Assembly (NCBI GenBank): GCA_031262585.1
Contig: JAISHK010000009.1
Location: forward strand, 91,770 to 155,769
From: Endomicrobium sp.
GTDB taxonomy: Bacteria; Elusimicrobiota; Endomicrobiia; Endomicrobiales; Endomicrobiaceae
Length of the DNA stretch: 64,000 nt
Direction of reading: 5' to 3'
In this document: piece after piece, positions 41,574-45,058 of the stretch
How the letters are laid out: each line of letters starts with the position of its first letter
How positions within the stretch are numbered: position 1 is the stretch's first letter
Program-made: the position numbers and the translations under genes
Notes under the pieces: model-generated
Told to the model about the DNA's origin: nothing
What the model saw: only the letters and a program-made list of their open reading frames with translations
Databases searched by the model: none

Positions 41574-43703
41574 ATGAGCATGAAGCATAAAAAAACAAAA
41601 AAACAATCAAAATCATCATTTTTTATAATTTTACTTATTACAATATCTCTGATAATTGTTATTGGTAAAGTAGCGGCAAATTTTATAGAAAATCTACCAT
41701 CTATACGACAATTAGACAATTATAGTCCAGACTTATCTACTAAGATTTACGATAAAGATAACAACTTAATAACCGAATTATTCAATGAAAGGCGTATTTT
41801 CATCCCAATAAATAGCATACCTGCAAACCTTCAAAACGCTTTTATAGCTACTGAAGATAATGACTTTTTCAAGCATTGGGGAATTTCAACAAAAGCTATT
41901 ATACGAGCTTTTTCAAAAATATTATTGAAAGGTAAAATTTCAGAAGGTGGTTCAACAATAACTCAACAGCTTGCAAAAATCATATTCTTAACTCATGAAA
42001 AAACATTAATTAGAAAAATAAAAGAAGCATTTTTAACTATACAACTTGAAAAAAATTATTCAAAAGATGAAATCATGCAGTTTTATATAAACCAAATATA
42101 TTTTGGTAATGGAGCACATGGAGTACAGTCTGCATCAGAAATATATTTTAATAAAAATGTACAGGATTTAAATCTTGCCGAATGTGCAACTCTTGCTGCA
42201 ATACCTAAATCTCCTAATTATTACAATCCGTTTAAAAACGAAAAAGCTGCACTTGCAAGGATAAATTTTGTTCTTTCAAAAATGAGAAAATTAGGGTACA
42301 TTACAAAAGAAGAAGAAGAAGAAGCTTTAAAAATTCCTTTACCTTTAAAAGAAAATGCACTTAAAATTAAAAAAAATCATTATTTTACAGATTTTTTACG
42401 AATAATACTAAAACCAAAATACGGCACAAACATTCTTTTAAAAGGTGGACTTTCAATTTATACAACTATTGACATGAAAGCTCAAAATGCTGCAGAAAAA
42501 GCTATTGAAGATCAACTTACAAAGTTTGATGAAGAAAAATTAAAAACCTTTAAAAAAGAAAAAAAAATACCTATTAAAGTACAAGGAGCGCTTATAGCTA
42601 TTGACCCAAAAAATGGAGCTATAAGAGCAATGGTTGGAGGAAGAAATTTTAAAGAATCTCAGTTTAACAGAGCAATTCAAGCAAAAAGACAAGCTGGTTC
42701 CGCATTTAAACCTTTTGTGTATCTTACAGCAATACAATCAGGACTGACATCTACAACTATTCTTGAAGATGCTCCAATGATTTTTATTTATAAAGAAAAC
42801 TCTTGGAATTTAGTTTCAAGAGATATAACTATTCTTGAGACAATTGCTGAAATGATATCTGAAGAAGATTTAATTGATACAAATAAAATATGGGTACCAA
42901 CAAATTATAGAAAAAAATATAGAGGTCCAGTAACTTTACGAACAGCACTTGCTTTATCTATAAATACATGTGCCGTTGAAACAATTATAAAAACAACTCC
43001 AGAAAAAGTCATAAAAACAGCAAGAAAACTCGGAATAACAACGCCTCTTATAAATTCTTTTTCACTTGCTTTAGGAGCAAGCGACGTAACTCTACAAGAG
43101 ATGGTTTCTGCTTTTGCTACATTTGCATCAGGTGGTATTAAAACAACACCATATGTTATAACAAAGATAATAGACAAAGATGGGAAAATTTTAGAAGAAA
43201 ATGTTTCAGAACAAAAAGAAATATTATCTTCTCAAGACTGTTTTATCATAACTAATCTACTTAAAGCTGTCATAGAGGAAGGAAGCGGTTGGTATGCTAA
43301 AAAAAACTTAGGTAGACCTTGCGCTGGAAAGACAGGAACAACGAATAATTCAAGCGACGCGTGGTTCATAGGATACACTCCTCAACTTGTAGCTGGAGTA
43401 TGGGTAGGTTATGATGATTCTTCAATATCACTTGGAGAAAAAGCTACAGGCGGTGGTATTGCTTGTCCTATATGGACAAACTTTATGAAAGAAACCCTAA
43501 ATGGAAAACCTATACTAGATTTCACACAACCTGAAAACATAGAATGGGCTTTAATTGACCCAAGTACAGGACTTCTTGCACTAAGCAAAACTCCAGGAGC
43601 TTTTTTAGAAGCATTTAAAAAAGGCACAACTCCAACAAAGTACTATAATCAACCATTTCCCAGTCAAACACAAAACCGAAGCACAGAAACAGAAGAATTT
43701 TAA
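41574..43703 (+). CDS. Class A penicillin-binding protein (PBP1A family)
   Basis: Bifunctional peptidoglycan polymerase and cross-linker in the inner membrane. The 709 residues have a basic N terminus, one membrane helix (FFIILLITISLIIVIGKV), and the GT51 glycosyltransferase with catalytic EDNDFF, GGSTITQQLAK and FGNGAHGVQSASEIYF. The transpeptidase has SAFK (SxxK serine), SIN and KTGTT. The listed start is the ATG with AAGGA upstream; a TTG 30 bases earlier is in frame but less likely. All catalytic motifs are intact, so the cell still makes peptidoglycan. It faces fabZ convergently. Confidence 0.95.
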   Translation: MSMKHKKTKKQSKSSFFIILLITISLIIVIGKVAANFIENLPSIRQLDNYSPDLSTKIYDKDNNLITELFNERRIFIPINSIPANLQNAFIATEDNDFFKHWGISTKAIIRAFSKILLKGKISEGGSTITQQLAKIIFLTHEKTLIRKIKEAFLTIQLEKNYSKDEIMQFYINQIYFGNGAHGVQSASEIYFNKNVQDLNLAECATLAAIPKSPNYYNPFKNEKAALARINFVLSKMRKLGYITKEEEEEALKIPLPLKENALKIKKNHYFTDFLRIILKPKYGTNILLKGGLSIYTTIDMKAQNAAEKAIEDQLTKFDEEKLKTFKKEKKIPIKVQGALIAIDPKNGAIRAMVGGRNFKESQFNRAIQAKRQAGSAFKPFVYLTAIQSGLTSTTILEDAPMIFIYKENSWNLVSRDITILETIAEMISEEDLIDTNKIWVPTNYRKKYRGPVTLRTALALSINTCAVETIIKTTPEKVIKTARKLGITTPLINSFSLALGASDVTLQEMVSAFATFASGGIKTTPYVITKIIDKDGKILEENVSEQKEILSSQDCFIITNLLKAVIEEGSGWYAKKNLGRPCAGKTGTTNNSSDAWFIGYTPQLVAGVWVGYDDSSISLGEKATGGGIACPIWTNFMKETLNGKPILDFTQPENIEWALIDPSTGLLALSKTPGAFLEAFKKGTTPTKYYNQPFPSQTQNRSTETEEF

Positions 43704-43944: not shown

Positions 43945-44412
43945 TTACTTTCTATCTACATTAACAAACCCAAATTCAGCTTCGGATGTCAATTCATCAT
44001 TAACGTAGGCCTCTCCTCTCATTTTTCCACGAGTTCCACTATCTTTTAGTATTTCTACACGCAATTCTAAAACGTCACCAGGCTTTACAGGCCTACGAAA
44101 TTTGACTTTATCTATAGACATAAAATACGCAAGCTTACCTTTCATTTCAGGTTTTGAAAGAAACATAACACAAGACGTTTGCGCCATCGCTTCAACAATT
44201 AAAACTCCAGGCATTATAGGAGTCCCAGGAAAATGTCCTTGAAAAAAATTTTCATTGCCAGTAACACATTTATAACCTGTTGCTTTTTTATTATTATTTT
44301 TATACACTTTCACCTTGTCTATCATTAAAAAAGGATACCTGTGAGGTATGTATTTTAAAACCTCTTCGTGCTCTAACATTACTTCATTTTCTATTAATTG
44401 TGTATTACTCAT
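43945..44412 (-). CDS. fabZ: 3-hydroxyacyl-ACP dehydratase
   Basis: Dehydrates 3-hydroxyacyl-ACP in fatty-acid elongation. The 155 residues form a hot-dog fold: EVLKYIPHRYPFLMIDKV, then GHFPGTPIMPGVLIVEAMAQ with the catalytic His and Glu, and a C-terminal EAEFGFV. A ten-codon extension is possible, but GGAGG lies just before the ATG at 44412. It sits at the end of the former bamA-lpxD-lpxC-fabZ run and is now the only intact gene between bamA and the PBP. The 241 bases beyond its stop contain a weak IGPNTII piece that could be an lpxA relic. Confidence 0.95.
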   Translation of the reverse strand: MSNTQLIENEVMLEHEEVLKYIPHRYPFLMIDKVKVYKNNNKKATGYKCVTGNENFFQGHFPGTPIMPGVLIVEAMAQTSCVMFLSKPEMKGKLAYFMSIDKVKFRRPVKPGDVLELRVEILKDSGTRGKMRGEAYVNDELTSEAEFGFVNVDRK

Positions 44413-44464
44413 ATTTATCCTCCATAACCTTATCTTTTTCAAAAAATTTTTTTATAAAAGTCAC

Positions 44465-44720
44465 ATTATTTAATGTCCAGATTTATCAGTGATTATTTTA
44501 ATTCTTATAAATTTCTCAGCCAAATATAAATCCATTATTAAACCTAGAACTTTGTGTCTCCTTATGAATACCATATATCCATAGCTCCCACCAATCCATT
44601 TTTTGAGAGTTTACACCTCATAAACAAAATCTTCACTAGTACAATTCTCTACTCCACCATCCAAAATTTGCAACTTATCATTATATATTTCTATAACCAA
44701 ATTATCAATACTAAGAACAC
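44465..44720 (-). pseudogene. lpxC: lpxC pseudogene (C-terminal remnant)
   Basis: LpxC deacetylates UDP-3-O-acyl-GlcNAc, the committed step of lipid A synthesis. Two pieces remain, joined across a stop and frame change. The first is SIDNLVIEIYNDKLQILDGG with CTSEDFVYEV, which matches the GSLDNAVV...DEFVRHK region. The second is FIRRHKVLGLIMDLYLAEKF with IITDKSGH, which matches the HKxLDxxGDLxLxG...KSGH segment that holds zinc and catalytic residues. The N-terminal two thirds are gone or unrecognisable. It lies between the lpxD remnant and fabZ, as in genomes where lpxC neighbours or fuses to fabZ. Confidence 0.8.
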
Positions 44721-44929
44721 AACATTCAAATATAATCACTCAATCATGTAAATTTTTATTCCATTTTTTTATAACAACTAAATTATAGGCAACTTCCCCC
44801 ACCAAAGAATTTTCATCTTTACTTTATTGTCTAAATCCGTTTTAAAACTCAATTTACATTATTACCTACTTTGTCCCATTCTCAATACTGTTGTAAAACT
44901 AAAACTACATCGACCAATATAATATAGCT

Positions 44930-45058
44930 CTCAAATACATAGTGACCCATCTTTTAGCTTAAAAAAAACAGTTAACCATTAGTTTAGGACAATATTTTCA
45001 TCACCAATAAATCCACATGAAACAATTTCTACAAGCTTTGACGTTGAAAATTTCATTA
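44930..45058 (-). pseudogene. lpxD: lpxD pseudogene (N-terminal remnant)
   Basis: LpxD adds the second acyl chain in lipid A synthesis. An ATG at 45058 with a GGAGAT ribosome site opens MKFSTSKLVEIVSCGFIGDE, continuing NIVLN before a stop, then FKLKDGSLCI in another frame. This fits the LpxD N-terminal pattern (MKFTLxELAxxLGGxxxGDxxxxIxGxxSxxxAxxGxLTF). The hexapeptide-repeat barrel is absent. Position directly after bamA is the standard lpxD location, which raises confidence in a short match. Confidence 0.65.

Follow-up and report, generated by a model that had tools for sequence, protein, structure and literature searches.

The window analysed in the current study is a 64-kb stretch of the genome of an Endomicrobium sp., in which remnants of two lipid A synthesis genes, lpxD and lpxC, lie between bamA and fabZ. 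All four are on the minus strand, and coordinates are given as positions in the window (Table 1). The assembly of this genome (G000) comprises 936,649 bases in 11 contigs and is 83.5% complete, and profile searches were made across 59 genomes, consisting of this one and 58 relatives. The names on homologous proteins suggest a placement in the Endomicrobium lineage of the Elusimicrobiota; the FabZ of the window is 66 to 78% identical to the listed Endomicrobium sp. proteins and 86% identical to its best match, which is not among these.

Table 1. Features of the bamA-fabZ region and the adjoining gene (positions in the 64-kb window).
Feature	Position	Strand	Basis
bamA, intact, outer-membrane protein assembly factor, 754 aa	45153..47417	-	TIGR03303, 476 bits (cut-off 297)
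lpxD remnant, start codon and 25 codons, then TAA	44984..45058	-	tblastn and direct reading
Degenerate spacer	44844..44983	.	relatives have the remainder of lpxD and the lpxC start at this place
lpxC remnant, relatives' residues ~41 to 121	44638..44843	-	tblastn
lpxC remnant, relatives' residues ~195 to 289	44434..44628	-	tblastn (E 3e-9); PF03331 positions 228-266
GGAGG ribosome-binding site of fabZ, 6 bases before ATG 44412	44419..44423	-	direct reading
fabZ, intact, 155 aa from ATG 44412	43945..44412	-	NF000582, 179 bits (cut-off 113); TIGR01750, 168 bits (cut-off 155)
PBP1A-family gene, intact, convergent with fabZ	41574..43703	+	TIGR02074, 630 bits

Remnants of lpxD and lpxC between bamA and fabZ

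About 0.74 kb lies between bamA and fabZ, whereas the same interval measures about 1.9 kb in G016, a genome with intact lpxD and lpxC. A preliminary description of this DNA had proposed that both genes are broken here between intact neighbours. The neighbours are indeed full frames that exceed the cut-offs of their family models, and BamA has the complete set of domains required of it (5 POTRA stretches and the Omp85 barrel). A translated search of the intervening DNA with the LpxC and LpxD proteins of relatives recovered broken pieces of both. The start of lpxD at 45058 reads MKFSTSKLVEIVSCGFIGDENIVLN and is followed by TAA; it is real, as 12 of 24 residues are identical to the intact LpxD of G013 (E 6.6e-4, tblastn with a small target). 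In the spacer that follows, relatives' proteins give no match on the minus strand (tblastn).

The lpxC remnant is likewise real and consists of two clear pieces, between which about 80 residues of the relatives' LpxC are absent. The first (44736-44638) has 18 of 33 residues identical (E 1e-6, tblastn). Upstream of it, a match at 44843-44739 in another frame (~28% identical, 21 bits) is weakly supported, having appeared only jointly with its neighbour and not having been recovered in a second tblastn. The other clear piece (44628-44434) carries 4 stops in 65 codons and has internal gaps of 3 and 17 residues; the stretch 44559-44434, with 3 stops in 42 codons, matches the LpxC of G023 at E 7e-8. 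PF03331 (LpxC) matches this genome solely at the wreck, with 20.3 bits, or 27.8 bits together with in-frame neighbours, stops included. Besides stops and deletions, the lpxC remnant probably contains a change of frame. In the alignment, the EH motif of the relatives' LpxC is represented by D-stop, and the Asp of the RHKxLD motif by Gly; in the LpxC of E. coli these are catalytic and metal-binding residues. The long intact frames on either side (bamA, fabZ and the 719-codon frame of the PBP1A-family gene) argue against poor sequence as the source of these breaks.

The fabZ gene and the lpxC-fabZ fusion

The FabZ domain is complete, and no second FabZ match was found in the assembly; that the gene is retained is expected, given its role in making fatty acids. 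The proposed death of lpxC is borne out, but a separate lpxC gene, as the preliminary description had it, is unlikely. The fabZ of the window is most likely what is left of an lpxC-fabZ fusion, so that half of one gene died while the other half lives. With the model of the bifunctional LpxC/FabZ protein (NF009667), the window frame scores 180.8 bits against 465 and covers profile positions 315-460 of 464, which is FabZ only.

Among the LpxC-bearing loci of relatives, fabZ lies in the same open frame as lpxC in 30 of 40, and within the genus the two are fused at 18 of 23 loci and split in G010, G004, G018, G023 and G027; they are likewise split in G016. That the direct ancestor already had lpxC and fabZ as split neighbours, of which only lpxC then died, is nevertheless somewhat unlikely. 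The stops or frameshifts between the halves in these six same-genus genomes would agree with it, but the fusion is the majority state of the genus and recurs further afield, in families elsewhere in the order, class and phylum, and the split of G010 amounts to one stop in the linker and looks secondary. This stop (L018 / L091) is an in-frame TAA located directly before the internal ribosome site.

The GGAGG of the window fabZ sits where many fused relatives have an in-frame GGAGG and start codon. The window start lies 22 codons before the PHR of FabZ, 6 bases behind GGAGG; in the fused same-genus relatives that have the site the distance to PHR is 23 to 24 codons, and in fused genes of the order 21 codons, in both cases within the open frame. 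Within the last 45 codons, 14 of 23 fused genes have a site of at least 5 bases ahead of a start codon, 12 of them at the matching place. In-frame starts with such a site are enriched in the linker (12 of 39, compared with 32 of 487 elsewhere; Fisher p 2e-5, which is indicative because the genomes are related). Many fused genes may therefore also make free FabZ. On the other side of the balance, 9 of the 23 have no 5-base site before the internal FabZ start (G001, G002, G007, G013, G015, G017, G024, G028 and G032), and in G009 and G031 the internal site is at a different place. If the ancestor carried the fused gene, as most relatives do, and its internal ribosome site already yielded free FabZ, LpxC would have been droppable without loss of fatty-acid synthesis.

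Fusions of lpxC and fabZ are known from Bacteroidetes, Chlorobi and Verrucomicrobia and have the same two domains in the same order (available text of PMC3087551; NF009667). The window differs from these in keeping the FabZ half only, and the fusion also spans relatives in the present phylum.

Beyond fabZ, the intact PBP1A-family gene, a transglycosylase/transpeptidase, occupies the place where relatives such as G025, G015 and G027 carry lpxA. According to the available text of Mies et al. 2024 (PMC11257099), MrcB is absent from almost the entire termite clade. A tandem pair of lpxA genes, both above the LpxA cut-off, stands beside fabZ in G004, G018, G021, G029 and other same-genus genomes.

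Lipid A genes elsewhere in the genome and their loss in relatives

Profile searches of the whole assembly found no intact lpxC or lpxD, copies of which elsewhere in the genome would have spoken against the preliminary description. LpxB, LpxK and WaaA have zero matches in the assembly. The LpxD profile gives a single weak match, far under its cut-off, which is GlmU; the best LpxA match (E 2.7e-5) is also far under the cut-off, and KdsA is present as a broken piece with no intact copy. Among the 59 genomes, matches are found to LpxC in 51, LpxB in 49, LpxK in 52 and WaaA in 47, and matches above the cut-off to LpxD in 50, LpxA in 48 and KdsA in 52.

A second locus tells a similar story. In G025, hldD, hldE, kdsB, kdsA, kdsC and a gene for an LpxL-like acyltransferase precede lptC, as named by family models (the acyltransferase being under its cut-offs), with which GlmU and FolC were also identified. 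Only pieces of hldD, kdsB and kdsA remain at this locus in the genome under study, where nothing was recognised of hldE, kdsC or the acyltransferase.

Since each lipid A gene searched for is broken or was not found, it is likely that lipid A is not made by this cell, and the proposal that this route is closed is supported by the lack of an intact copy of any of the seven genes searched for (lpxC, lpxD, lpxA, lpxB, lpxK, waaA and kdsA). The incompleteness of the assembly weighs against this, as lipid A might still be made by genes within the sixth of the genome that was not assembled, or assembly errors might have produced the breaks. We consider this extremely improbable, because lpxC, lpxD, hldD, kdsB and kdsA are wrecks at their home loci, long frames that neighbour the bamA-fabZ wreck are intact, functional copies of all seven genes would need to have escaped assembly, and the same loss is seen in relatives.

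LpxC is present in 50 of the 58 relatives and gives no match in the other eight (G003, G006, G011, G014, G020, G026, G030 and G033). Four of these eight give no FabZ match either, and in G011 the locus is interrupted by contig ends. Three of them (G006, G026 and G030) have bamA and fabZ on one contig and have lost lpxD and lpxC while keeping fabZ: G026 has recognisable pieces of both genes before fabZ, G006 has a small piece of lpxC, and the frame of bamA abuts that of fabZ in G030. In G026 (L124 5778-6317), kdsC is open (TIGR01670, 151 bits, cut-off 107), although the adjoining hldE, kdsB and kdsA are wrecks.

A tree of BamA and FabZ (33 genomes, 901 columns) requires four changes, a number that holds throughout the 5-95% range of bootstrap trees; a minimum of two follows from its starred branches taken alone. 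A single clade of G006 and G026 is rejected (p 4.3e-5), and G001 and G013, which have kept the fused gene, group with G026. Joining G000 and G030 as a single loss is not rejected (p 0.237), and for this reason four independent losses are not claimed; the tree points to at least three, provided that lost genes are not regained. The long branches of G030 and G016 meet in the tree, which the tree program flagged as unsafe.

The loss of lipopolysaccharide (LPS) synthesis in this lineage is already published, so that this part of the finding is not new. In the termite-gut flagellate endosymbiont 'Candidatus Endomicrobium trichonymphae' Rs-D17, which belongs to the same lineage by protein names, the LPS pathway is likewise interrupted by pseudogenes (available text of PMC4505116). 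The Endomicrobiellum endosymbionts likewise have reduced genomes, and key LPS genes are absent in many members, while the same source also states that the genus kept the capacity for LPS (Mies et al. 2024, PMC11257099, available text).

The Lpt bridge and its possible cargo

The outer-membrane protein machinery has been retained, as the preliminary description had stated: the genome still encodes BamA, TolB and TamB, as well as a TonB-like protein, an outer-membrane efflux protein and a protein with an OmpA domain. Going beyond that description, the survival of the Lpt transport genes is the more surprising part. Six lpt genes have open frames, namely lptB, lptC, lptF, lptG, a divergent lptD and lptA, the last of these with an in-frame deletion of 27 residues. 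LptB (346 bits, cut-off 240) and LptC (74.7 bits, cut-off 38) are above their cut-offs, and the LptF/LptG domain PF03739 is found twice at full length. The open lptA frame occupies the conserved place, and its product shows 31 to 42% identity with the LptA of relatives. The LptD (P0173) is full length and was recognised by homology and by its fold, with a barrel and an LptA-like N domain. The Pfam LptD model is too insensitive here, as it matches 5 of the 59 genomes, G000 not among them, and a protein search was used next; LptD-like proteins also occur in Endomicrobium proavitum (homologue named LptD) and 'Candidatus Endomicrobiellum agilis' (P0151 and P0188, besides P0173). The available text of PMC11257099, the only account of an Endomicrobium LptD found in the literature, reports LptD as absent from all Endomicrobiaceae; the proteins described here speak against that absence.

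The border between live and dead genes is sharp, with the dead hldD, kdsB and kdsA against an intact lptC, and is also sharp at lptF. A giant frame divergent from lptF in relatives has 1680 to 1768 codons (L117 2818-7857, L123 2177-7477, L120 2176-7479); that of L120 partially matches SprA, the outer-membrane translocon of the type IX secretion system (166 bits, cut-off 200), and only a stop-ridden remnant is found in the genome under study (L114 7103-8050, G000:C10).

We consider it quite probable that lpxD and the LpxC half of the likely fusion are dead while FabZ is intact, that lipid A is not made, and that the Lpt system exports another lipid. LptB2FG together with LptC, LptA and LptD would then move a lipid other than lipid A to the outer membrane, and the lpt genes would be held by selection because of this cargo. 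The wrecks have 15 in-frame stops in 389 codons and the six lpt genes none in 2050 codons; the stop density of the wrecks, with equal exposure, would predict 79. In a codon-position test on changes private to this genome, the ratio of first-and-second to third positions is 0.29 for lptB and 0.31 for lptF, compared with 0.44 for bamA and 0.26 for fabZ; it is 0.82 for the lpxC wreck, on 59 codons with just 15 third positions. Among the lpt genes, this test shows clear constraint on lptB and lptF but does not settle the matter for the other four. After separate losses the same lpt genes are open in G026, and lptC, lptA and lptB in G006.

Several observations pull the other way. The stop-density test presumes equal exposure, and the probability of zero stops is 4e-4 at a tenth and 0.02 at a twentieth (5%) of it. 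The codon-position ratios of lptC, lptA and lptG are 0.63 each and that of lptD is 0.73 (with other reference genomes), so some relaxation of the lpt genes is possible; in four lipid A-bearing genomes the ranges are 0.23-0.53 for lptC, 0.50-0.72 for lptA, 0.34-0.48 for lptF and 0.23-0.57 for lptG. The NCBIfam scores of LptF (171, cut-off 230) and LptG (177, cut-off 240) are both below threshold, LptA is under both of its cut-offs (Pfam 18 against 20.4; NCBIfam 22 against 71.7) and has lost about 27 residues, and P0173 clears no Pfam or NCBIfam cut-off as LptD. G030 is without a match to LptC, LptF or LptG, and G006 (60% complete) is without one to LptF/LptG, so the bridge is not always kept.

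Some of these points would fit decay with a lag, whereby the loss of lipid A is so recent that the lpt genes, now idle, have yet to break: the in-frame deletion in lptA, the ratios of lptC, lptA, lptG and lptD raised toward that of the lpxC wreck, and the missing genes of G030. This explanation is distinctly unlikely, given the lack of stops, the sharp borders at lptC and lptF, the constraint on lptB and lptF, and the open genes that followed the separate losses in G026 and G006.

The export of another lipid has its nearest model in the LPS-less spirochetes. Borrelia burgdorferi has an LPT system and Treponema pallidum a predicted one, for which a glycolipid cargo has been proposed (available text of PMC10353723), and the present genome resembles them in having Lpt proteins in a diderm without LPS. 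It differs in that the lipid A and Kdo (3-deoxy-D-manno-oct-2-ulosonic acid) wrecks are still in place, some adjoining live lpt genes, and in that congeneric species still possess the lipid A genes as well as the Lpt genes. To our knowledge, such wrecks have not been described in the spirochetes. LptF/LptG matches were also found in the control genomes of Thermus, Deinobacterium and Thermotoga, all of which are without an LpxC match. A retained Lpt system that serves surface lipoproteins instead of a lipid, as discussed for Borrelia, is very unlikely here: a 2026 mSphere article (PMC13317210, available text) cites a Borrelia study on lipoprotein transport and LPS machinery, but reduced LptD in Borrelia left a surface lipoprotein unaffected and glycolipids were favoured (PMC10353723, available text).

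No published account of the half-dead fusion, or of Lpt outliving lipid A in this group, was found in the literature covered, subscription journals being mostly outside it; the available text of PMC11257099 has no mention of the fused gene or of Lpt survival after lipid A loss, and the main text of PMC8809381 contains no LPS terms. A broader proposal, which in our judgement could equally well prove right or wrong, is that Endomicrobium-type bacteria have a second, needed Lpt cargo, that the bridge was at first under selection, as an exporter dedicated to this cargo, after each of the at least three losses of lipid A, and that the free FabZ of the fusion made the loss of LpxC costless. The half-dead fusion would represent a bifunctional enzyme from which one domain was dropped and the other kept, repeatedly within one genus. 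Whether Lpt has any cargo beyond LPS has so far been argued from bacteria wholly without LPS. In this group, lipid A-bearing relatives can be set beside those that lack it while the wrecks are in place, which would make the retention of the bridge datable and its cargo searchable.
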